In this document: piece after piece, positions 30,498 through 42,270 of the stretch
Numbering within the stretch: the first letter of the stretch is position 1
Layout: each line of letters opens with the position of its first letter
Origin: Gammaproteobacteria bacterium
GTDB taxonomy: Bacteria > Pseudomonadota > Gammaproteobacteria > S012-40
Reading direction: 5' to 3'
Length of the DNA: 45,392 nucleotides
NCBI GenBank assembly: GCA_919902765.1
Contig: CAKKRP010000130.1
Span: 1 to 45,392 of the forward strand
Program-made: the position numbers and the translations under genes
Notes under the pieces: generated by a model
Database searches by the model: none
What the model was told of the DNA's origin: nothing
Seen by the model: the letters and a program-made list of their open reading frames with translations, nothing else

Positions 30498-30508
30498 CTG
30501 GGGCGGTG

Positions 30509-31405
30509 ATGCGCTTTAACAAGCCCCCCACGACATTTGAAGAACAAATAGACATCTTGGTGTCACGCGGCATGTCGATTCCCGACCGCGAACATGCGCT
30601 GCACTACCTAAAGCACCTCAATTATTATCGGCTGCGCGGTTATTGGTTGCCGTTCGAAGCGGACACGAAAAATCATCGTTTCAAAACCGGCGTTACTTTC
30701 GACGATGCGTTAAATCTATATGTTTTCGACCGAGAAATGCGTTTGTTGTTGATCGACGCGATTGAGCGAATTGAAGTTTCACTACGCACACAGTGGGCCT
30801 ACCATCTTGCGCACAATCATGGCGCGCACGCGTACCTTGATGTCGCGCTAAGCAAAAATGCGGGTTGGCATCAGGCGAATCTTGAGTCCTTGAACAAGGA
30901 ATTGGAAAGATCAGACGAAGTATTTGTCGGGCACTACAATAATACCTATAGTCATCCTAAAAATTCACCACCCATTTGGGCCGTGTGCGAGGTGATGTCG
31001 CTGGGCGTGTTATCGCGTTGGTTAAAAAGTTTGCGGCCTGCCAAAACGCGCGCCGATATTGCGAATACCTATTTTATTTCCGACAAAGTGTTGGAAAGCT
31101 TCGTCGAACATTTGTCCTATGTGCGCAACGTGTGCGCGCACCACAGCCGTTTGTGGAACCGGCGCTTGACCAAGACCATGGAATTGCCGCGCACCAAGCC
31201 AAAAGGCATGTATCAGAATTTCAACCCGGGGCAGGATCGCAAGCTATACAATACGCTGGTCATGATCGCGTATTTTATGGACTTAATCAGCCCACACCAT
31301 CACTGGAAGACTCGATTAAAAGCGCTGATTAGCAATCATGCCGTTGATGCGCGCGCGATGGGGTTTCCGGACAATTGGCAAACGCTGCCAATATGGCGAC
31401 ACTAA
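30509..31405 (+). CDS. abiF: AbiF/AbiD-like (Abi_2) HEPN abortive-infection protein
   Basis: The protein of about 298 residues begins FNKPPTTFEEQIDILVSRGM and has HYLKHLNYYRLRGYWLPFE, both typical of Abi_2. The HEPN ribonuclease motif Rx4H is present as VRNVCAHHSRLWNRR (about residue 210). HEPN toxins of this family cut RNA on phage infection, causing growth arrest. ATG 30509 follows GGGG at 30500-30503; the GTG at 30506 is also possible. A structured RNA with its own promoter sits directly upstream and may hold the toxin in check. It is complete and undamaged. Confidence 0.88.
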   Translation: MRFNKPPTTFEEQIDILVSRGMSIPDREHALHYLKHLNYYRLRGYWLPFEADTKNHRFKTGVTFDDALNLYVFDREMRLLLIDAIERIEVSLRTQWAYHLAHNHGAHAYLDVALSKNAGWHQANLESLNKELERSDEVFVGHYNNTYSHPKNSPPIWAVCEVMSLGVLSRWLKSLRPAKTRADIANTYFISDKVLESFVEHLSYVRNVCAHHSRLWNRRLTKTMELPRTKPKGMYQNFNPGQDRKLYNTLVMIAYFMDLISPHHHWKTRLKALISNHAVDARAMGFPDNWQTLPIWRH

Positions 31406-31485
31406 ACAAAAGCGAATTTGAAGTGTCCTTGACTAGGTTCTATTTTGGCCAGAAAAGCGAGAACCTGCAAACAGGGATCAAATAG

Positions 31486-31815
31486 ATGAGCATCGCGGGT
31501 ATTCGCTCCAACAGAGGCGACGGATACCAGACATTGGTCGCGTTCCATTGGGCACTGTTAGTCCTTTCCGATCCAGAATATCAATGGATTGAGGTGGACT
31601 CGGTATCGTATTTGGTGGACGATGTCGTGGTCAGAAAAACTGATGGAACACTGATTTGTTGCCAGTGCAAAAAGAACCAAGTTGATTTCAAATCATGGAC
31701 GATAGCGTATCTCGCAGATGAGCTGGACAAAGCTTCTCGTTTGCTGGCCAATAGTCAGAATACTGAGGTTCGCTTCTATTCGCGCAGCCCGTTTGGGGCG
31801 CTTGCCAAACTGTAG
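31486..31815 (+). pseudogene. Truncated Cap4-like nuclease (5' fragment of a defence gene)
   Basis: The 109 residues read SIAGIRSNRGDGYQTLVAFH, then WIEVDSVSYLVDDVVV and GTLICCQCKKNQVDFKSW. The D...QxK arrangement fits the Cap4/DUF4297-type restriction-nuclease domain at the N terminus of large STAND or CBASS effectors. It stops at FYSRSPFGALAKL, where relatives continue. The stop codon abuts an insertion-sequence-like end (TGGTCAAGTAAAACTGGACA), and no continuation is found downstream. The rest (ATPase or sensor) has been deleted. It lies 80 bases after the AbiF-like gene. Confidence 0.6.
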
Positions 31816-32207: not shown

Positions 32208-32294
32208 GTTGCTTCTTCAATGTCATTATTTTTTTCGGAACATGCGTCACGGCGGCGCGTGTTCCGGGCGACACAATACGAGGAGCGCAATATC

Positions 32295-33854
32295 ATGCAG
32301 CAATATCCTGGAGTGACGAGCATTTCGCCACAAGAAAAAAATCTCTCGGCCGAGTTGATGCAACAAGTGGCTGAGCACAAGGGTTGCGGTACGTCGGGCG
32401 GCAGCGGCAAGGCGAGTTGCGGTTCGTCGGCGGCGCAGGGCGACATGCCGCCCGAGATATGGGAGAAGGTCAAAAATCACCCCTGTTACAGCGAGGAGGC
32501 GCATCATCACTACGCGCGCATGCATGTGGCGGTCGCACCGGCGTGCAATATCCAATGCAATTATTGCAATCGCAAATATGATTGCGCCAATGAGTCGCGC
32601 CCCGGCGTGGTGAGCGAAAAACTGACACCGGAGCAAGCGGCAAAAAAGGTGTTGGCCGTCGCCAGCACCATTCCGCAAATGACGGTGCTGGGCATTGCCG
32701 GCCCCGGCGATCCGCTCGCCAACCCCGAAAAAACCTTTAAGACTTTTGACCTGATTTATAAAACGGCGCCGGATATAAAACTGTGTTTGTCCACCAATGG
32801 CCTGGCGTTGCCGGATCACGTTGATACTATCAAAAGTTTTAATGTCGATCACGTGACCATCACCATCAATATGGTCGATCCCGAAATCGGCGCGGAAATC
32901 TATCCGTGGATTTTCTACAAGCACAAACGCATTAAGGGCAAGGAGGCGGCGAAGATATTGTCCGAACACCAACTGCAGGGATTGGAGATGCTCACGGAAC
33001 GCGGCATTTTGTGCAAGGTCAATTCGGTGATGATTCCCGGTATCAATGATCAGCACTTGGTCGAGGTGAACAAGGCGGTGAAATCGCGCGGCGCATTTTT
33101 GCACAATATCATGCCGCTCATTTCCGCGCCAGAACACGGCACGGTGTTCGGTCTGAACGGACAGCGCGGCCCTACCGCCCAGGAGTTGAAACGCCTGCAA
33201 GATAACTGCGAGGGTGAAATGAATATGATGCGCCACTGCCGCCAATGTCGCGCGGACGCCGTGGGCTTGTTGGGCGAAGACCGTTCCGCCGAATTCACCA
33301 CGGAAAAAATTATGGCGATGGATGTGCAGTATGACGCCGGCACACGCAAAGCCTACCAGGAATTGGTGGAACATGAGCGCCAGGAAAAGGTAGCGGCAAA
33401 AAACTCGGAGTTGTCCGAGTTGGCGGCGCAGCGTAGCGACATTAAGTTGCTGGTCGCGGTCGCCACCAAGGGTCAGGGGCGGATCAACGAACACTTCGGT
33501 CATGCCAAGGAATTTCAGGTCTATGAACTAAGCACTGCGGGCGCGAAATTTGTGGGTCACCGGCGCGTCGATTTGTATTGTCAGGGCGGGTACGGCGAGG
33601 AAGATTCGCTCGCCACTATCATTCGCGCGCTCAACGATTGCAATGCGGTATTTGTCGCCAAGATAGGCGGTTGTCCGCGCGACGAGTTGAGCAAGGCGGG
33701 TATTCAACCTGTCGAACAATATGCCCACGAATTTATCGAGCAATCCGCCATTGCCTGGTTTAAGGACTATCTCGAAAAAATAAACAGCGGTGAAATCTCA
33801 CATGTGAGAAAAGGCGATGCGGACATACGCCAAGGCGCCTATGTCGCGGCTTAA
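32295..33854 (+). CDS. nifB: Nitrogenase cofactor biosynthesis protein NifB
   Basis: NifB is the radical-SAM enzyme that fuses two Fe4S4 clusters with a carbide and a sulfur into NifB-co, precursor of FeMo-co. The SAM-cluster motif is [36 protein letters not shown] and [15 protein letters not shown] are typical. The C-terminal NifX-like domain (from about residue 385, with [18 protein letters not shown]) holds or passes the cluster. ATG 32295 follows GAGGAG; a frame open from 32079 runs through the promoter and is rejected. It heads a plus-strand run of nif genes. Confidence 0.97.
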
Positions 33855-34128: not shown

Positions 34129-34488
34129 ATGAATGTGACAATAACACCGAGTGCCGAGAAATTTATCCTCCGCATGGTGCGTTTTGGCAATGCAGGCGAA
34201 GATGCCGGTTTTCGTCTCAGCGTAACGGCCGGCGGCTGTTCCGGGCTAGCCTCGGAATTTAGTGTCGAAGCCGCGCCACGACCCGGTGATAGCGTGGTGG
34301 AGGTGAGTGGCGTGAAATTGTTTTTGCCCGCCGAGAGCCGTTTGTTGCTCGACGGTGTGACGATAGATTTTGCCGATACACCTTTGAGTAGCGGTCTGAC
34401 GTTTATCGATCCAAAGGCGAAGAGTTGCGCATGCAGTAGTGCCGGCCCCTCGGTAGTGGAAATCAACGGCATTACACGTAAACACTGA
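34129..34488 (+). CDS. IscA/HesB-like iron-sulfur carrier (Nif-IscA type)
   Basis: A 119-residue A-type carrier. The three cluster cysteines are in TAGGCSGLASEF and KSCACSSAG, embedded in the usual LPAESRLLLDGVTIDF and GLTFIDPKAK. It delivers Fe-S clusters to nitrogenase-maturation proteins. It starts 10 bases after the ferredoxin gene. The C-terminal extension after the CAC motif is longer than in housekeeping IscA. Confidence 0.9.
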   Translation: MNVTITPSAEKFILRMVRFGNAGEDAGFRLSVTAGGCSGLASEFSVEAAPRPGDSVVEVSGVKLFLPAESRLLLDGVTIDFADTPLSSGLTFIDPKAKSCACSSAGPSVVEINGITRKH

Positions 34489-34510: not shown

Positions 34511-34624
34511 ATGAACGCGGTGGTGACCGAGAAGCTTTTAGAACTCGATCCGCAGAATCGGTTAGGCGGCAAGGTGTTGATCGATGTACTTGAACGTATG
34601 GGGTGCGACGACGATGATAACTGA
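34511..34624 (+). CDS. Very small hypothetical protein in the nif operon
   Basis: ATG 34511 to TGA 34624 codes 37 residues: MNAVVTEKLLELDPQNRLGG, then KVLIDVLERM and a GCDDDDN tail. The composition is protein-like (amphipathic helix plus acidic tail). It overlaps the start of the next gene by 11 bases, favouring real, coupled translation. GGGG lies 10-14 bases upstream. No family is recognised. Confidence 0.45.
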   Translation: MNAVVTEKLLELDPQNRLGGKVLIDVLERMGCDDDDN

Positions 34625-35384
34625 CATGGGCGCATACGATTGGATGGGTAACGCAATTCGTTGCGAGAATTGCAGTTATCGTAGGTTGCAGGTTGAAGGT
34701 CAATGTCAACTCCAACATGCGTGTTTACAAGATCGTTACGCGCGCCGCATCGATAGGTTTTTTGCGTGGAACCCGACGCTTGCCAATGGCAGTATCGCAC
34801 ATCCCTATTTCGAGGTGCGCGCAGTGGCGGCGAAATACGCGGATATTTTCCGCCTGCCGCGATTGTTGACGGATCCTGACGACACCGTGCGTTGGAGTGC
34901 CGCGCAACGTTTGCCGACACGTTTGCTGTTTCCGTTGCGTCACGATCCCAGTCGTGAGGTGCGCATTCGGGTTGCGATGCGCCTGGAGGGCGCAGATCTC
35001 ATGCCGATGATGAAAGATCCCGATTATTATGTGCGCCAAACGGTGGCCGGGCGTGTGCCGATATATTTGTTGCCGTTTATGATTTACGACACTGAGGTGG
35101 AAGTTCGGCGTGTTGTCGCGCAACGCGTGGGGGTCGAATGGTTGATGCCCATGGCAGGGGACACGGACGCCGCTGTGCGTATCGAGGTTGCATCGCGCCT
35201 CACACCGAAGCAGTTATTGTGGTTGAAGCGCGATGCGGACTGGCGTGTACGTTATGAAGTCGCGAATCGTATCAACCTGGAAGGCTTGGCGGATATGCAT
35301 AACGATTCCGATCCGTTGGTGCGCGAGCGCGTGTTGCAGCGTTTGCATGATGGCGCCGGAGTGGAATCCGGCGAATGTAAATAA
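34614..35384 (+). CDS. Leucine-rich repeat variant (LRV) Fe-S protein
   Basis: An N-terminal cysteine set (CENCSYRRLQVEGQCQLQHAC) can hold a 4Fe-4S cluster. About seven repeats of 22-25 residues follow, each with D-x-x-VR-x-x-VA-x-R-L (for example DPSREVRIRVAMRLEGADLM and DTDAAVRIEVASRL). This matches the LRV protein known from the Azotobacter vinelandii nif region, where a 4Fe-4S domain precedes an alpha-helical superhelix. The biochemical role remains unknown. ATG 34614 overlaps the small gene before it; ATG 34626 is an alternative. Confidence 0.85.
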   Translation: MITDMGAYDWMGNAIRCENCSYRRLQVEGQCQLQHACLQDRYARRIDRFFAWNPTLANGSIAHPYFEVRAVAAKYADIFRLPRLLTDPDDTVRWSAAQRLPTRLLFPLRHDPSREVRIRVAMRLEGADLMPMMKDPDYYVRQTVAGRVPIYLLPFMIYDTEVEVRRVVAQRVGVEWLMPMAGDTDAAVRIEVASRLTPKQLLWLKRDADWRVRYEVANRINLEGLADMHNDSDPLVRERVLQRLHDGAGVESGECK

Positions 35385-35404: not shown

Positions 35405-35713
35405 ATGAACATCAATCGCGACGGTGATGTGGTGGAGCTCGAACTTCCACCGCGTTTCAACTATGGGCAGAAGGTGCGTTCGCGTAAAAGCATACGCAAC
35501 GACGGCACCTTTCCAGGCAGAGAAATCGGCGAGATTTTGGTTAAAAAAGGTGAGGAAGGATACGTCGTCAGCATCGGCACTTTCTTGCAACAATTTTACA
35601 TCTACGGCGTCGATTTTTATTTGCGCGGTTATCGTGTTGGGATGAAAGGTAAAGAGTTAGACACGGTGGAAGACGAGATGTCGCCGCGTATGACAGAGGA
35701 GCAGCCGTTATGA
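35405..35713 (+). CDS. nifZ: NifZ
   Basis: NifZ helps complete the second P-cluster of the MoFe protein. The 102-residue protein carries LPPRFNYGQKVRSRKSIRND, GREIGEILVKKGEEGYV and FLQQFYIYGVDFYLRGYRVG, which together define the family. It overlaps the following NifZ-like gene by four bases (ATGA). Confidence 0.9.
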   Translation: MNINRDGDVVELELPPRFNYGQKVRSRKSIRNDGTFPGREIGEILVKKGEEGYVVSIGTFLQQFYIYGVDFYLRGYRVGMKGKELDTVEDEMSPRMTEEQPL

Positions 35714-36006
35714 GTAACGAGACTATTATTGACGCAAAAGCAGCGCGTAGGCCTGCCGTTATTCCAGGGGCGCCGCCGCGCGAGCCTAAATATCAACGGG
35801 GTGCCAGCGTGGTGGCGATGATCGATTTATATAACGATGGATCCTATCCAAATAGGGCAAACGGCGCCCTGTTGGTGACATTGGGCGCGCTCGGCGAGGT
35901 TGTGCAAGTGGGCTTACACGTTGAAACCGGCACACCGATATATATGGTGCAATTTGGTGGCCGCGATGTCGTGGGTTGTTTGGAAGAAGAAATTGTGTTC
36001 GGTTAA
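35710..36006 (+). CDS. Second NifZ-like protein
   Basis: This 98-residue product resembles its neighbour in layout: PKYQRGASVVAMIDLYNDGS, then LLVTLGALGEVVQVGLH and YMVQFGGRDVVGCLEEEI. The NifZ core of small beta strands seems preserved, but the N terminus is different and proline-rich. A tandem pair with overlapping ATGA suggests duplication and possibly a hetero-complex. The function is inferred from the family only. Confidence 0.75.
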   Translation: MSNETIIDAKAARRPAVIPGAPPREPKYQRGASVVAMIDLYNDGSYPNRANGALLVTLGALGEVVQVGLHVETGTPIYMVQFGGRDVVGCLEEEIVFG

Positions 36007-36016
36007 CGAGGCGGTC

Positions 36017-36382
36017 ATGGCAGTCACGACACAACGGAAAACTACGCCTCATCCGCTTGCGAATGCGCATCCTAACGATGTGGATCGCAAGCGTATCGAA
36101 CGCGCGTTGGCAAACCGTAAGCGTTATCGTTATGTCGAACCGTTGGTATTGGCGACCCCCGGCGGCTATCGCATTACCAGTCCATGTTGTTCACGCAATA
36201 TCGATCCTTCGGGTGGCATGATAGATATCGCGCTAATGCTTTATATGTCGTCCCAGGGGGTGTGGTCGCTGTATCGCATGAATCACCCCGAACGCCAATG
36301 GGTGTTGCATTCGGAGCTCGCGCGCCTTAATGAATTGTTAGCGCAAATCAATGAAGATCAAGATCGGATTTTCTGGCGATGA
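36017..36382 (+). CDS. Nif-linked DUF3024-like protein
   Basis: The 121-residue protein contains RKRYRYVEPLVLATPGGYRI, SPCCSRNIDPSGGMIDIALM and GVWSLYRMNHPERQWVLHSE, ending DQDRIFWR. This pattern fits DUF3024, a family of unknown function common in nif clusters. The CCSRN cysteines could bind a metal or cluster. ATG 36017 follows GAGGCGG. It overlaps nifS by four bases (ATGA), so it is probably made in step with the desulfurase. Confidence 0.65.
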   Translation: MAVTTQRKTTPHPLANAHPNDVDRKRIERALANRKRYRYVEPLVLATPGGYRITSPCCSRNIDPSGGMIDIALMLYMSSQGVWSLYRMNHPERQWVLHSELARLNELLAQINEDQDRIFWR

Positions 36383-37533
36383 CCGAGCAAAAAAACACCA
36401 TTTATTTGGATTACAATGCGCTGGCACCCATCGCCCCGGAATGCATGGATGCGGCCCTCGAATGTATGAGATGGGGCATTGGCAATGCATCTAGCAAACA
36501 CCATGCGGGTGAACGCGCGAAATATTTTATGATCGAAGCACGCGCGCAAGTGGCGGCGTTGTTGGGCGCTCAAACGGCGGAAATTGTGTTCACCAGCGGC
36601 GGCACCGAAAGCATACACACCGCGATATATGGCGCGTTGGCGTTGGCGCCGCACAAACGACACCTAGTGACCAGCCGTGTCGAACATCCCGCCACGCTGC
36701 AATTGTTAAAGCATTTGGAAGCACAGGGCACACGTGTGACCTATCTGCCCGTGGATACGCAGGGGCGTATCGATGTGCGGCAGCTGCAACAGGCTATCAC
36801 GCCGGACACGGCCTTGGTCAGCTTGATGTGGGCGAACAACGAAACCGGCGTGGTGTTCCCGATCGCGGAGATCGCCGCGATTTGTAATGCGCATAAAGTG
36901 TTGTTGCACTGCGATGCGGTGCAAGCAGCCGGAAAGCTCCCCATTAATGTGCAGCAGGTCAAAGTAGATTTATTGTCCGTTTCGGGACACAAACTACACG
37001 CGCCGCCCGGTATAGGCGCGTTGTTCGTGCGCAAGGGATTGAAGTTGCCGCCGCTGTTATTCGGACAACAAGAACGCGCGCGGCGTGGCGGCACCGCAAA
37101 CGTGCCGGGCATTGCGGCATTGGGCGTGGCGTGCCTATTGGCGTTCGACACCGTGCCACTGGGTGTGACGCAGATCGCTGAGCGGCGCGACCGGCTGGAG
37201 CGCGGTATCGTGGCGCGTTTTCCGTTTGCGCGCGTGAACGGCGGCGCGGCTGAACGTGTGGCAAATACGACCAATATCCGTTTCGGTGAACTGGATGCCG
37301 AGGCCCTGTTGCTCAAGCTGGATGGCGCAGGGATATGCGCGGCGCAGGGGGCGGCGTGCAGCGCCGGTGGCGCTGAACCCTCGCATGTTTTAACGGCGAT
37401 GGGCTTAGACGCGCAAGCGGCGCAGGCCTCGATTCGTTTCTCCGTGGGGCGTTACACGCGCAACGATGAAATCGACACCGTGCTTGAAATATTGCCGCAG
37501 ATCGTCGCGTCTTTGGTGGCCGATGCGGCGTGA
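36379..37533 (+). CDS. nifS: Cysteine desulfurase NifS
   Basis: NifS takes sulfur from cysteine for cluster assembly. PLP-site residues are intact: FTSGGTESIHTAIYG, VEHPA, MWANNETGVVFPI, HCDAVQAAGK and SVSGHKLHAPPGIGAL, whose lysine forms the Schiff base. The active cysteine is in GAACSAGGAEPSHVL. The usual YLDNNATT opening is changed to YLDYNALAPIAP. No nifU accompanies it here, so cluster scaffolding must come from elsewhere or from the IscA-like protein. Confidence 0.95.
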   Translation: MTEQKNTIYLDYNALAPIAPECMDAALECMRWGIGNASSKHHAGERAKYFMIEARAQVAALLGAQTAEIVFTSGGTESIHTAIYGALALAPHKRHLVTSRVEHPATLQLLKHLEAQGTRVTYLPVDTQGRIDVRQLQQAITPDTALVSLMWANNETGVVFPIAEIAAICNAHKVLLHCDAVQAAGKLPINVQQVKVDLLSVSGHKLHAPPGIGALFVRKGLKLPPLLFGQQERARRGGTANVPGIAALGVACLLAFDTVPLGVTQIAERRDRLERGIVARFPFARVNGGAAERVANTTNIRFGELDAEALLLKLDGAGICAAQGAACSAGGAEPSHVLTAMGLDAQAAQASIRFSVGRYTRNDEIDTVLEILPQIVASLVADAA

Positions 37534-37662: not shown

Positions 37663-37872
37663 ATGAAAGTCATGCTACGAAGAAATGCCGCCGGTGTGTT
37701 ATCGGCCTATGTTCCGAAGAAAGATCTCGAAGAACCTATTGTGGCGATGGACAAGCCTGAAATGTGGGGGGGCGTGGTCACGCTCGCCAACGGCTGGCGG
37801 CTGGCGCTACCCGAGATGGCGCTGGATACGCGCTTGCCACTCACGGTCGAAGCACGAAAATTGGGTGATTGA
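37663..37872 (+). CDS. nifT: NifT/FixU family protein
   Basis: A 69-residue protein with MKVMLRRNAAGVLSAYVPKK, DLEEPIV and WGGVVTLANGWRLALP, the NifT signature. NifT commonly accompanies nifHDK or nifB, but its loss has little effect where tested and its role is unclear. GGAG lies 11 bases before the ATG. It follows a palindromic repeat, so its level may differ from nifS. Confidence 0.9.
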   Translation: MKVMLRRNAAGVLSAYVPKKDLEEPIVAMDKPEMWGGVVTLANGWRLALPEMALDTRLPLTVEARKLGD

Positions 37873-37873
37873 T

Positions 37874-38134
37874 ATGGCAATCAGCGATGGACAATTGGAA
37901 CGCATCGAAAAATTACTGCTTGCGGATACTTCATGCAGCAACGTCGCGGCATTACGCTTGGCGTTTCCCGGCCTAGTGGTTACGCGTTGCGACGCGGGCG
38001 ACATGCAGGATGAAACACCGTTCCGACGTTTTTCTCAGTTTGATGTATATTTGCTCGATACGCGTGATCACTGCGTGCGCCTGACGGCGGACCCCGCACA
38101 CGCCACTGGTGTCGTGTTGGCGCAGCGGCCATGA
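37874..38134 (+). CDS. Nif-linked conserved hypothetical protein
   Basis: An 86-residue protein: ISDGQLERIEKLLLADTSCS, then FPGLVVTRCDAGDMQDETPF, FDVYLLDTRDHCVRLT and a tail ATGVVLAQRP. It resembles the small nif-cluster proteins grouped as DUF6129 in my memory, a weak assignment. It begins two bases after nifT ends and overlaps the DegT-like gene by four bases (ATGA), so it is part of a coupled string. Confidence 0.65.
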   Translation: MAISDGQLERIEKLLLADTSCSNVAALRLAFPGLVVTRCDAGDMQDETPFRRFSQFDVYLLDTRDHCVRLTADPAHATGVVLAQRP

Positions 38135-39282
38135 GCGAGAACCGGATACCGCTTTCCGATCCAGACATCAGCACGGCGGAGATCGACGCCGTGAGCGCCG
38201 CACTCCGGTCGCCCCGCTTGTCGCACGGCCCGCTCGTCACGGCGTTCGAAACCGCGTTCGCGGCCTATGTCGGGCGCAAACATGCGGTGGCGGTTGCCAG
38301 CGGAACGTTGGGTTTGTTAGCGAGTCTACGCGCCTACAGCATCGGCGCCGGTCACGAAGTCATCGTCGCTCCTTATGCGTGGCACCAGATTGCGCACGCG
38401 GTCATGCTGGCGGGCGCCACGCCAGTGTTTGCGGATATCGACTATTGGTCCGGCACCATGTCACCTGAAAAGGCGCAGGCGAAAATTAGCCCGCACACGC
38501 ACGCCATTATCGCGGGCAATACCAACGGCCATCCCGCAGCGTGGAGCGCATTGCGCGGTATCGCCGAGCGCCACGGCTTATTATTGATCGAAGATTCGAC
38601 CGAAGCTATCGGTTCGCGTTACCAAGGAAAACGAGTGGGCGGATTTGGCGATTGCGCGATATTTGATTTTTCACAACCCGGCGCGCTGGTGTGCGGTGAA
38701 GGCGGAATGGTCGTCACCGACGATGCAGATATCGCGAGTGGATTACGCAATTATTGCGTGCGGCGCATGGACGAGCGATTCTCGGTCAGCATCACGGCGC
38801 GACTGCCGTATCAATCCGCGATGAGCGATGTCACTGCGGCGCTGGGATTGTCCCAATTGCAGCGCATCGACGACATCCTCGCGCGCCGCAAGCGCGTCGA
38901 GCAGTATTATTACGATCACGTAAAGTCGTTCGAGGGCATCAAAGATCCCTATATCGCTCCGGATGTCACCGAGGTCCACTGGTTTCTTTACCTGGTGCAT
39001 TTGGGTACCCGTTTTACACGCCCCAGCCGCGACGCCATCGTCGAGGATTTACGCACAGCAGACGTTGCAGCGGCGGCCTACTGCCTGCCCTTGCACCAAC
39101 AACGCTTTTATCTCGATCGCGGCCATCGTAAGGGCGAGTGTCTGGTCACTGAAAAAGTGGCTGACCGTGTGCTCGCGCTGCCGTTTCACGCACACCTAAC
39201 GGACGAACAGGTTTCCTTTATCGTGCAAACCGCGAAAGATGCCTCGGTGAATATCGGCGCGGGTTCGGCGATTTATTTGTAG
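38131..39282 (+). CDS. DegT/DnrJ-fold protein lacking the PLP lysine
   Basis: The 383-residue sequence follows the DegT/EryC1 aminotransferase fold: GPLVTAFETAFAAYVGRKHA, VASGTLGLLASL, VIVAPYAWHQIAHAVMLAGA, FADIDYWSG and LLIEDSTEAIGSRYQG. At the internal aldimine site the family reads FSFHxxK and then GEGGM; here it is FDFSQPGALVCGEGGMVVTD, with Gly where Lys should be. GEGGM and the PLP-pyridine aspartate (EDST) remain. It therefore cannot form a Schiff base and may bind a ligand without transamination, or act as a scaffold. Its ATG overlaps the previous gene (ATGA). Confidence 0.88.
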   Translation: MSENRIPLSDPDISTAEIDAVSAALRSPRLSHGPLVTAFETAFAAYVGRKHAVAVASGTLGLLASLRAYSIGAGHEVIVAPYAWHQIAHAVMLAGATPVFADIDYWSGTMSPEKAQAKISPHTHAIIAGNTNGHPAAWSALRGIAERHGLLLIEDSTEAIGSRYQGKRVGGFGDCAIFDFSQPGALVCGEGGMVVTDDADIASGLRNYCVRRMDERFSVSITARLPYQSAMSDVTAALGLSQLQRIDDILARRKRVEQYYYDHVKSFEGIKDPYIAPDVTEVHWFLYLVHLGTRFTRPSRDAIVEDLRTADVAAAAYCLPLHQQRFYLDRGHRKGECLVTEKVADRVLALPFHAHLTDEQVSFIVQTAKDASVNIGAGSAIYL

Positions 39283-39322: not shown

Positions 39323-39619
39323 ATGCCAATGATTACCATTCTGCCCAGTAATAAAACGGTGCAATCCACGGAGGGCGTTCGTTTGCTCGATGCGATACTT
39401 GCTGCGGAGGTTCCGTTCGCGCACAAGTGCGGCGGTAAAGCCGATTGCGGTTCGTGCCATGTGTTTGTACACGATGGGCGCAAAACGCTTTCTAAAATAC
39501 AGCGCTTAGAAAATGAAAAACTCGATAGCATCGTCGGCGTCGGTTCCAAATCGCGCCTCGCGTGTCAAGCCAAGGTGGGTTCCGAAAATATTACCGTGGA
39601 GCTTTTGAGCTTCGCGTAG
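39323..39619 (+). CDS. [2Fe-2S] ferredoxin, nif-associated
   Basis: The 98-residue protein has the plant-type cluster pattern C-x5-C-x2-C (CGGKADCGSC) with a fourth cysteine in RLACQAKVG. The N terminus MITILPSNKTVQSTEGVRLL is the usual ferredoxin strand set. Such proteins in nif clusters may supply electrons for cluster assembly or carry oxygen-protection functions. GAGAGGAG precedes the ATG by 8 bases. Confidence 0.9.
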   Translation: MPMITILPSNKTVQSTEGVRLLDAILAAEVPFAHKCGGKADCGSCHVFVHDGRKTLSKIQRLENEKLDSIVGVGSKSRLACQAKVGSENITVELLSFA

Positions 39620-39773: not shown

Positions 39774-40007
39774 ATGCAGAATGATCAAGTGATGATACAT
39801 GTGCGTTTCGCGCCCAACGGTACAGTGGTGGAAATCGGCGAGCGGCCGGTTGCGGTCGGCGCGCAGGAATGGTTTAACCATCTCAGCGCTACGACGCACG
39901 ACAGTTATCAGAGTCTATCCGGTGGGCGTGGTTTATTTCGATTGGCGCCCGGCCAACTATCCACCGCAAAGGCGCCTTGGAACAATGGCAAGGGGACGGC
40001 ATCATGA
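39774..40007 (+). CDS. Small nif-linked hypothetical protein
   Basis: A 77-residue product: MQNDQVMIHVRFAPNGTVVE, IGERPVAVGAQEWFNHLS, then YQSLSGGRGLFRLAPGQL. It has a plausible beta-hairpin N terminus, and SGGRGLFRL looks conserved. CTAGGAG lies 8 bases upstream. It overlaps the SIR2-like gene by four bases (ATGA), so the two should be made together. No family is recognised. A competing frame from 39799 has poor, arginine-rich composition. Confidence 0.6.
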   Translation: MQNDQVMIHVRFAPNGTVVEIGERPVAVGAQEWFNHLSATTHDSYQSLSGGRGLFRLAPGQLSTAKAPWNNGKGTAS

Positions 40008-40885
40008 TGGCCGTGGAAAGCGCGGCGATTAAAAACGCATTGCAGGAAGGGTCGGTTATCCCCTATTTGGGACCTGGCGTACTCGCGCTGAATGCGGCCA
40101 ACGCGAGCGTGCCAAGTTCGCCAGAGTCGCTGGTGCAGCGGCTAGTGGCGAAGGCCAGTGTGCCGCACAAAATCCGCAACAACCTAACGGCGGCGGCGCA
40201 GTTTGTCGAGAATTTCAAACACCGCAAGACGCTGGTCGGCATAATGAACGAGGCCTTCAGCGTGGCGGCGCAGGCGACACAACTACAGCGTTTTCTGGCC
40301 GCTTTGAATTCTTCGCCGATGATCGTCGATGTGTGGTACGACAATGCGATGGCGGCCGCATTGGGAGACTGTTTTGGAAACTCCAAGAGCGCACCGTGGG
40401 GACAGGTGCAAGGCCTCAGTCAATCTGAACATTTCGGACGTTGGACGCAAGCCTATCGCGCCGACAGCACACCGGTGGATGACACGGACATAGGGCAGTG
40501 GCAGACATTATTATATAAACCGCTAGGTGGCGTTGCGCCGGCCAAAAACTATCTGGTGTCGGATACCGATTTTGTCGAGGTGCTGACCGAAATCGATATT
40601 CAAACGCCCATCCCCAGTGCCGTGCAACAGCGACGTAGCGGTCGCAGTTTTCTATTTCTTGGCTGCCGTTTCGCCAATCAATTGGAGCGCACGTTCGCGC
40701 GCCAAATTATGAAGCGTTCATCGGCCAAGCACTGGGCCGTGTTACCGGATGCGCTGACAAAAAATGAGCGTCGTTTCCTTGCCGAGCAGAATATCCAGAG
40801 AATCGAGATGCCCTTGGAGGAATTTGCGGCGACACTCACTCAGGTGCAGGAAAATCCGACTCAGCGGCAAGTGGTGAATTGCTAA
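40004..40885 (+). CDS. SIR2-like protein in the nif operon
   Basis: The N terminus of the 293-residue protein has the Rossmann-like opening of SIR2-type domains: IKNALQEGSVIPYLGPGVLA, followed by PESLVQRLVAKASVP and TAAAQFVENFKHRKTLVGIM. Later segments include FLFLGCRFANQLERTFARQI, typical of the sensing end of SIR2_2 proteins. Such domains bind or cleave NAD+. I cannot identify the catalytic Asn/His pair with confidence. ATG 40004 overlaps the upstream small gene and follows AAGGGGA. It is the last plus-strand gene of the nifB run and converges on draT. Confidence 0.7.
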   Translation: MMAVESAAIKNALQEGSVIPYLGPGVLALNAANASVPSSPESLVQRLVAKASVPHKIRNNLTAAAQFVENFKHRKTLVGIMNEAFSVAAQATQLQRFLAALNSSPMIVDVWYDNAMAAALGDCFGNSKSAPWGQVQGLSQSEHFGRWTQAYRADSTPVDDTDIGQWQTLLYKPLGGVAPAKNYLVSDTDFVEVLTEIDIQTPIPSAVQQRRSGRSFLFLGCRFANQLERTFARQIMKRSSAKHWAVLPDALTKNERRFLAEQNIQRIEMPLEEFAATLTQVQENPTQRQVVNC

Positions 40886-41034
40886 CGCTGCACCGCCAGC
40901 GCGCGGTACGAAAAACCCGCGCGAATATAAGCCGATGCGCGGTGTGGATAGGGATCGAATTTAAATAGGGGATGTAGGGTAGTGAGGCGGTTGGCCTCGA
41001 CACGGCAGGCCTTAAGCCCTTCGCCGAGTATCAA
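40882..41034 (-). CDS. Small protein coupled to draT (TTG start)
   Basis: TTG 41034 overlaps the draT stop (TTGA) and opens a 50-residue frame: MILGEGLKACRVEANRLTTL, HPLFKFDPYPHRASAYIRAG, then FSYRALAVQR. The composition is that of a real protein with a possible helix followed by an aromatic stretch. Its TAG at 40882-40884 overlaps the SIR2-like stop on the other strand. It is easily missed by gene callers. The function is unknown. A frameshifted extension of DraT is the alternative. Confidence 0.5.
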   Translation of the reverse strand: MILGEGLKACRVEANRLTTLHPLFKFDPYPHRASAYIRAGFSYRALAVQR

Positions 41035-41855
41035 GAAAGGTAAATTGTTTTAACGTGATAGTCACCACCGATTGCCAAATATTCCGCTTCCCCCTTGAGC
41101 GCATGACGTGTCAACAATTCACTGTGAAACACTACTTTGACACTGGGCACCTGCACCTCCAGCAAGCAGTCACCGAACTCGCTGGCGACGATACGGCTTG
41201 CACTAAATGAAACCAAATTATTTAGCCGCAGCACACTGCCGTCGCCGTGTTGCGGCGCGGCGATCACACGATGTTCGTCGAAGTCATTGATGCCGCGGTA
41301 TAACGTGACATGGCGGGGGGATGCGCCCCCGCGCGCCAACGACCACTGGCAAAATTCATAAAGCAGGTCGAGCTGCAAATAAATCGCATTGTTGTGAAAG
41401 CGGCTCGACATCTTTTCCTCGATGTAATTGGCCCATGCATCCGAGGAAAAAGATCTCAAGGGCATTTTATGGAACGTGGGATAGATACCAAAACGGCTTT
41501 CCACCCATGATTTTAATACCGCGCCTTCGCGGCTGTTAGCGTCGAAGCCCCAACCGCGCAGCAGGCGTAGGTAACTGGCGCGAAAACGTCGCTGCGTGGT
41601 GGAGATTTGAGTATTTTGTTCCAGTTTAAAAGTTTCGTTCATGTAGCGTTCGAAAGTACTGGATGCCTCCACCGCGTCCATGCAATCACGCAACGCGTTG
41701 AATAACGCCGTATGCGATTCGCGCACTCCGGCGATACGTAACAGCGTAGGGTTTTCATTGAACGCGGTGCTGGCGAGCAGGCGCGACAATACGCCCACCA
41801 AGTTGGCGCCCAGTCCGGATCCTGCGCTATGTATTCCAAGCTTGTTAAAGTGCAT
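41031..41855 (-). CDS. draT: NAD+-dinitrogenase-reductase ADP-ribosyltransferase
   Basis: DraT switches nitrogenase off by ADP-ribosylating an arginine of NifH when ammonium or darkness appears. Family stretches are RIAGVRESHTALFNAL, FRASYLRLLRGWGFD, GAVLKSWVESRFGIYPTFHK and EKMSSRFHNNAIYLQLDLLY. The transferase R-S-E set fits LYRGINDF, LVSFSASRIVASEFGD and ALKGEAEYLAIGG. ATG 41855 gives MHFNKLGIHSAG and overlaps the receiver gene by 11 bases; a TTG at 41888 is less likely. draG, the reversing enzyme, is not in the window. The target arginine of NifH is present (CAGRGVI). Confidence 0.93.
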   Translation of the reverse strand: MHFNKLGIHSAGSGLGANLVGVLSRLLASTAFNENPTLLRIAGVRESHTALFNALRDCMDAVEASSTFERYMNETFKLEQNTQISTTQRRFRASYLRLLRGWGFDANSREGAVLKSWVESRFGIYPTFHKMPLRSFSSDAWANYIEEKMSSRFHNNAIYLQLDLLYEFCQWSLARGGASPRHVTLYRGINDFDEHRVIAAPQHGDGSVLRLNNLVSFSASRIVASEFGDCLLEVQVPSVKVVFHSELLTRHALKGEAEYLAIGGDYHVKTIYLS

Positions 41856-42270
41856 GGATCGCAATGACAGTGCGCGATGCCCGTCCAAGCAAGCGGTTCA
41901 CCTGTTTGCGCGTTTGCTCCACCGTAATGGGTTTTAGCAAGACGGCGTCGGCACCGCACTGCAAACAGCCGGCAACCAGCGGATCTTCGCGCGACTCTGC
42001 GACCAATAGCACCTTTAGTCCATCGATATTTTTTTTGAGCGTGAGCAGCACACCCACGCCGAGGCGCCGCACGACCTCAATCCCAAGCAACACGACATCG
42101 GGTTTGTATTGCAGGCCTTTTCGCAAGGCTTCGTCCACATCGCGAAGTTCGTGCGTTTCATTCTCGTCGTGCAGCATGAATTGCAGCGCCGCGCGCATAA
42201 TTTCGTCGTCGTCGATGACGAATACGCGTTTGTTATCCACTGCGCGCGAGGTGTCTACACCAATTTGCAT
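41845..42270 (-). CDS. Receiver-domain protein lacking the phospho-acceptor
   Basis: A 141-residue single receiver domain: RVFVIDDDEIMRAALQFML has the acidic pair, and GADAVLLKPITVEQTRKQ has the conserved lysine. At the phosphorylation position PDVVLLD the sequence is PDVVLLGIEVV, so Gly replaces Asp. The downstream Thr/Ser is also changed (VLLVAESRED). It is probably a pseudo-receiver used for binding rather than phosphorelay. It is followed by draT with an 11-base overlap, so it is a likely partner of DraT. AGGAG precedes the ATG. Confidence 0.85.
   Translation of the reverse strand: MQIGVDTSRAVDNKRVFVIDDDEIMRAALQFMLHDENETHELRDVDEALRKGLQYKPDVVLLGIEVVRRLGVGVLLTLKKNIDGLKVLLVAESREDPLVAGCLQCGADAVLLKPITVEQTRKQVNRLLGRASRTVIAIHAL

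Follow-up and report, generated by a model that had tools for sequence, protein, structure and literature searches.

A lysine-less DegT-fold protein of proteobacterial nif operons, probably a pseudoenzyme

Several proteins of the PLP fold do without cofactor chemistry and act through binding, among them the eukaryotic antizyme inhibitor and LCB1/SPTLC1, the inactive partner subunit of serine palmitoyltransferase. Within the DegT/DnrJ/EryC1/StrS family, GDP-4-keto-6-deoxy-D-mannose-3-dehydratase (ColD) is a member without the Schiff-base lysine, in which a His serves as the catalytic base and PLP/PMP is bound. Nif operons in turn encode NifT, NifW, NifZ and NafY, which are small or non-catalytic and several of which aid maturation, and to our knowledge none of them has a PLP fold. 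The closest described enzymes to the protein treated here are the DegT sugar aminotransferases ArnB, GDP-perosamine synthase, PseC and Spr1654. In Spr1654 PLP is contacted by Lys199, by Asp170 at N1, by His173 at O3', by Ser194 and Thr59 at the phosphate and through water by Glu205/Gly206; the Asn and Arg of the GFNYR loop come from the other subunit in the family, and DegT active sites span the dimer (PMC5936713). One nif-linked family member has been listed, BRADO5411 of Bradyrhizobium ORS278, a 'putative Aminotransferase, DegT/DnrJ/EryC1/StrS family' in a nif operon of Aeschynomene symbionts, where it adjoins nifZ, LRV and SufA-like genes (PMC3899966). It is catalogued only, as the paper neither notes a missing lysine nor describes a mutant. 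Literature searches on DegT proteins with nif, on DUF6129 and on PLP-fold pseudoenzymes, with subscription journals outside their reach, returned only this listing and no paper that treats a nif-linked DegT protein as lysine-less or tests its function.

DegT0, a working name for the lysine-less DegT-fold protein of nif operons, is a 383 aa protein encoded at 38131-39282 (+) of the window, the whole 45,392-nucleotide stretch of gammaproteobacterial DNA that was analysed, and the translation of its ORF contains CAIFDFSQPGALVCGEGGM. Judged by position and name, BRADO5411 is very probably its orthologue. DegT0 belongs to the DegT/DnrJ/EryC1/StrS family by descent and fold: the Pfam domain PF01041 spans residues 12-367 with a score of 310 bits, the predicted AlphaFold structure has an overall pLDDT of 91.1, and Foldseek matches this model to ArnB and perosamine synthase with TM scores of 0.88-0.93. 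The whole fold is thus shared with the sugar aminotransferases at approximately 30% identity, which bears out the original prediction of an alignment along the entire DegT fold. The same prediction placed a Gly at the Schiff-base position within FDFSQPG, and in an ungapped stretch of the alignment Gly184 (codon GGC, 38680-38682 (+)) does fall on the Schiff-base Lys186 of GDP-perosamine synthase (3bn1/3dr7). Its further claim that GEGGM is retained is correct for the window protein but holds only in part for the family, where the Glu of GEGG varies between E, D, Q, A and S with at least six changes in the clade.

A scan of genome contigs identified about 40 close relatives of DegT0 with 53-74% identity, all located within the same nif operon, in Azospirillum, Skermanella, Bradyrhizobium, Methylococcaceae, Acidithiobacillus, Aquabacterium, Sideroxydans, Hydrogenophilales and others. 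Ten further lysine-less nif loci come from the genome collection and one more has 49% identity, and four plasmid records agree in being lysine-less and nif-linked, including that of the nodule symbiont Paraburkholderia sprentiae. The total of about 50 nif-linked loci, a few of which may be one species counted twice, extends over alpha-, beta- and gammaproteobacteria. None of them has a lysine at site 184, which is Gly or Ser in most and Ala, Leu, Phe or Gln in a few. The loss is therefore a property of the clade and not a local mutation, and the nif-linked relatives with an intact lysine that would have spoken against the original prediction did not appear. In a tree of 36 nif rows and 32 lysine-bearing homologues, a single branch, with a support of 100/100 and a stem length of 0.87, separates all nif rows from the rest, and the scores drop cleanly from at least 560 bits within the nif clade to 331 bits in the lysine-bearing group. 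Closest to the clade among the lysine-bearing rows are L041, L003 and L094, the latter two from genomes outside the nifH-positive set (G040 and G185). The lysine-less nif clade therefore has a single origin nested among lysine-bearing DegT enzymes. On the symbiotic plasmid of P. sprentiae the nifS-like gene has an annotated length of only some 140 aa (L102, 4988-5407 (+)) and no SIR2 CDS is annotated 3' of DegT0, which is nonetheless full length.

By spacing and alignment, the Spr1654 contacts Lys199, Asp170, His173, Ser194, Thr59 and Glu205-Gly206 correspond to positions 184, 155, 158, 179, 59 and 190-191 of DegT0. Part of the old pocket is still in place: Asp155, which would contact the pyridine nitrogen, is invariant in the clade as well as in the lysine-bearing enzymes, Thr59 is nearly always kept, and Ser57/Thr59 of the SGT phosphate loop and the ring-stacking aromatic residue at position 84 are retained. 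Other parts have been exchanged. The phosphate Ser is replaced by Asp179 (codon 38665-38667 (+)), which is Asp in 36/36 clade rows, the position being Ser in 29/32 lysine-bearing rows. The O3' ligand is an invariant Glu158, found in 4/32 controls, His130 has become an invariant Asn130, and in the GFNYR loop Asn228 is changed to Gln and Arg230 to Gly or Ala, the window protein having Gln228 and Ala230. DegT0 thus lacks the Schiff-base lysine, the phosphate Ser, the O3' His/Gln and the GFNYR Asn/Arg of the enzymes. It also departs from ColD, as the clade combines Gly, Ser, Ala, Leu, Phe or Gln at position 184 with the lack of a conserved base and with a damaged phosphate site; no His occurs at this position in any clade member read, and the original prediction was right to set the change apart from the His-for-Lys replacement of ColD. 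A substitute lysine for PLP was considered and, as far as the alignment shows, rejected, and with it the other observation that could have overturned the prediction: only Lys271 and Lys369 are invariant in the clade, and in the alignment both lie in the C-terminal domain, outside the PLP site.

Loss of the lysine alone is insufficient proof that PLP has been lost, because ArnB, WbpE and perosamine synthase with the lysine mutated to Ala (K-to-A) have crystallised with PLP or with a sugar ligand bound, according to the titles of entries 4oca, 3nys and 3dr4. For this reason the case against PLP rests also on the changes at the phosphate site, and it is the altered phosphate Ser, O3' ligand and Asn/Arg loop that would form the stronger argument, beyond the lysine. 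When mapped on the tree, site 184 has changed at least eight times within the clade but never to Lys, while positions 179, 158, 130 and 155 are unchanged. With a lysine site that drifts amid other pocket residues that stay fixed, the protein seems to have given up PLP catalysis without being free to decay, and DegT0 probably binds no PLP.

The operon in which DegT0 resides comprises nifB (32262-33854, reading start approximate; PF04055, PF02579), an IscA/SufA-type Fe-S assembly gene (34129-34488; TIGR00049, 67 bits), a gene for an LRV protein with an FeS4 cluster domain (34584-35384; PF05484, PF01816), two tandem NifZ-domain genes (35405-36006, that is 35405-35713 and 35710-36006; PF04319), a DUF3024 gene (36017-36382; PF11225, 72 bits), a nifS-type cysteine desulfurase gene (36379-37533; TIGR03402, 470 bits, below its cut-off of 530.75), nifT (37663-37872; PF06988, 107 bits), a DUF6129-like ORF (37874-38134), DegT0 itself, a 2Fe-2S ferredoxin gene (39323-39619; PF00111) and a SIR2_2-domain gene (39977-40885; PF13289, 66 bits), all on the plus strand. 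The start codon of DegT0 (38131-38133) overlaps the TGA of the upstream ORF (38132-38134) as ATGA, and the predicted coupling to the nif cluster is accordingly found, with the DUF6129-like ORF 3' of nifT as the partner. The relatives have in common the gene order nifB ... nifZ-nifZ-DUF3024-nifS-nifT-DUF6129-DegT-fdx/SIR2, and the DUF3024 gene recurs between nifZ and nifS in most of the gamma- and betaproteobacterial clusters examined. Beyond the SIR2_2 gene lie genes for DRAT (dinitrogenase reductase ADP-ribosyltransferase) and a response regulator on the opposite strand as well as nifH and nifD. The DRAT gene overlaps that of the response-regulator receiver protein and is divergent from nifH (41031-42270 (-)); no association was found between DRAT, which acts in nitrogenase ADP-ribosylation, and DegT0. 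Just 5' of nifB (30506-31815 (+)) there are a gene of the Abi_2 (abortive-infection-like) type and an ORF with a weak likeness to Cap4 nucleases.

The SIR2-like neighbour has homologues scoring above 360 bits in 12/12 DegT0 genomes and elsewhere only in G217 and G312; among the nifH genomes of the class sample it accompanies DegT0 almost strictly, in 8/8 genomes with DegT0 against 2/24 without (Fisher p 4e-6), and its gene is kept in nearly all DegT0-bearing nif clusters. Its fold matches the SIR2 NADases ThsA, DSR2 and KomC at a modest TM of about 0.6. In an alignment to ThsA-type NADases Trp stands invariably in place of the TTNYD Asn (xxWYD), and 13/14 sequences carry Leu, Ile, Met, Ser or Trp instead of the K-x-HG His (alignment A3). 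Having lost the NADase Asn and His, it is thus an apparent second pseudoenzyme of the nif operon beside DegT0. The DUF6129-like ORF scores 14.5 bits against PF19624, below the Pfam cut-off of 23.6, and this copy is consequently missed by default annotation, although it aligns with relatives at the equivalent place in other clusters and the gene at this position is annotated DUF6129 in one Bradyrhizobium plasmid. Homologues occur in 31/36 genomes searched (alignment A2), and the gene lies 3' of nifT or near nifH in most genomes that carry nifH, whether or not they have DegT0. DUF6129 was therefore rejected as an exclusive partner of DegT0, since it is present in most nifH genomes that lack the latter.

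The DegT0 gene evolves under purifying selection, with dN/dS values of 0.05-0.28 in the 13 pairs with unsaturated dS. With its catalytic residues lost and the rest of the protein under such selection, DegT0 qualifies as a pseudoenzyme, very probably a helper with no catalysis of its own. All DegT0 genomes carry nifH (8/8, compared with 32/369 in the class sample; p 1.3e-9), and this restriction together with the conserved location in the nif cluster marks it as a probable nif accessory protein. It is not indispensable: 24/32 nifH genomes in the class sample are without it, G312 keeps the SIR2-like gene but has no DegT0 gene, and G217 has a broken DegT0 remnant ending GAGSAIYL between DUF6129 and SIR2. 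DegT0 is taken as accessory because these two SIR2-keeping genomes have no intact copy. Nif clusters that keep nifT-DUF6129-SIR2 without an intact DegT0 are found at L101 5948-6262 (-), which is from G217, and at L100 6243-7586 (+). The C-terminal remnant in G217 represents a natural loss that is useful for comparison.

Positions that are invariant or nearly so in the clade but not conserved in the enzymes cluster at residues 266-274 (SFEGIK-PY), 290-306 (HLG-RF...D) and 363-382. The C-terminus of the clade ends KDAS-N-GAG(A/S)AIY, which in the window protein reads GAGSAIYL (39256-39279 (+)) and as GAG-x-AIY is clade-invariant and absent from DegT enzymes. The pLDDT of the AlphaFold model falls below 50 at 379-381; an invariant tail that the monomer model leaves unplaced is what an interaction motif would be expected to look like.

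We propose that DegT0 is an accessory pseudoenzyme dedicated to nif: rather than catalysing a reaction, it would bind other proteins or scaffold them while nitrogenase matures or is protected. We give this reading about an even chance. A PLP-dependent DegT sugar aminotransferase would have lost its Schiff-base lysine and much of its PLP pocket once, in the ancestor of the clade, and the lysine-less protein would have been recruited into the nifB/nifZ/nifS/nifT operon, keeping its whole fold and presumably the DegT dimer. Working without PLP chemistry, it may contact other proteins through the newly fixed motifs of the C-terminal domain and the invariant GAG(A/S)AIY tail, and its likely partners would be the SIR2-like protein, to which it is linked genetically, the DUF6129 protein, with which its translation is coupled, and the ferredoxin. 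The retained fold, the absence of the lysine at about 50 loci, the changed pocket, the nif linkage, the selection, the co-occurrence with SIR2 and the new C-terminal residues are consistent with such a role. Against it stand the dispensability of DegT0, the purely genetic nature of its association with SIR2 and DUF6129, which partly reflects the inheritance of one operon, and the retention of Asp155, Ser57/Thr59 and the ring-stacking aromatic residue, by virtue of which a ligand may still bind. According to the main rival, Asp155, Glu158, Asp179 and Asn130 form a rebuilt, acidic polar site at the base of the cleft for a metal or small metabolite, making DegT0 a carrier or sensor. Asp179 and Glu158 were gained and fixed while the lysine site drifts, the kept S57/T59 and D155 show that the pocket was not simply abandoned, and the adjoining genes serve Fe-S and cofactor assembly; yet there are no invariant Cys/His cluster ligands near the site and conserved residues crowd the C-terminal domain and tail no less densely, and we regard this reading as possible but appreciably less probable than a scaffold.

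The remaining explanations fare worse. The K-to-A crystals, together with the retained Asp155, T59 and aromatic residue at 84, would allow DegT0 to be a B6 enzyme still, with PMP or PLP bound non-covalently as in ColD or some other dehydratase. This is improbable given the invariant Asp at the phosphate Ser site, the loss of the GFNYR Asn and Arg, the absence of a conserved general base among the residues at site 184 and the variable Glu of GEGG. The sole DegT-family gene (E <= 1e-30) in 5/12 genomes (G000, G025, G180, G272 and G488, the last two 100% complete in one contig and in five contigs, respectively) is moreover DegT0, located in a nif operon rather than a sugar pathway. The same genomes weigh against a heterodimer in which DegT0 would be the inactive subunit beside a lysine-bearing paralogue, an arrangement for which active sites common to both subunits and partners of the LCB1 kind offer precedent: as these five encode no other DegT protein, an obligate heterodimer is ruled out there, and so is joint work with a second DegT in one sugar pathway, and we consider this option very improbable overall. 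That the lysine was lost by local mutation, in a decaying gene or through an annotation artefact is scarcely credible; the remnant in G217 is its one point of support, and it was rejected in view of the clade-wide loss, dN/dS values well below 1 and frames that are of full length at almost every locus. To the extent that sequence allows a test, the original prediction is supported: a DegT-fold protein linked to nif that has turned from PLP chemistry to another use. A bolder extension of the scaffold proposal, which we hold only tentatively and think rather unlikely, is that DegT0, the SIR2-like protein (both former enzymes) and the DUF6129 protein make up a non-catalytic module for nitrogenase assembly or protection, in which the acidic former PLP site of DegT0 would serve a metal or cofactor-related ligand.

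PLP-fold pseudoenzymes as such are already known, and what we rate as new is the presence of one in nitrogen fixation. LCB1/SPTLC1 and antizyme inhibitor belong to other branches of the PLP fold and have other partners, whereas in five genomes at least DegT0 manages without a catalytic DegT paralogue; from the sugar aminotransferases it is set apart by its altered pocket, its new C-terminal tail and its place in a nif operon. With NifT, NifW, NifZ and NafY it has in common that it is a nif operon product, probably a non-catalytic one. The plasmid records label the gene an aminotransferase in 3/4 cases, the fourth having no CDS there, and under such a label DegT0 can readily be passed over as a sugar gene out of place. 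For new hosts, nitrogenase parts lists draw chiefly on a handful of models, Klebsiella and Azotobacter among them, while DegT0 is conserved in the nif operons of Azospirillum, Bradyrhizobium, Methylococcaceae, Acidithiobacillus, Aquabacterium and a Paraburkholderia nodule symbiont. Its recognition as a pseudoenzyme opens a direct question to testing, namely what a PLP fold without PLP does for nitrogenase.
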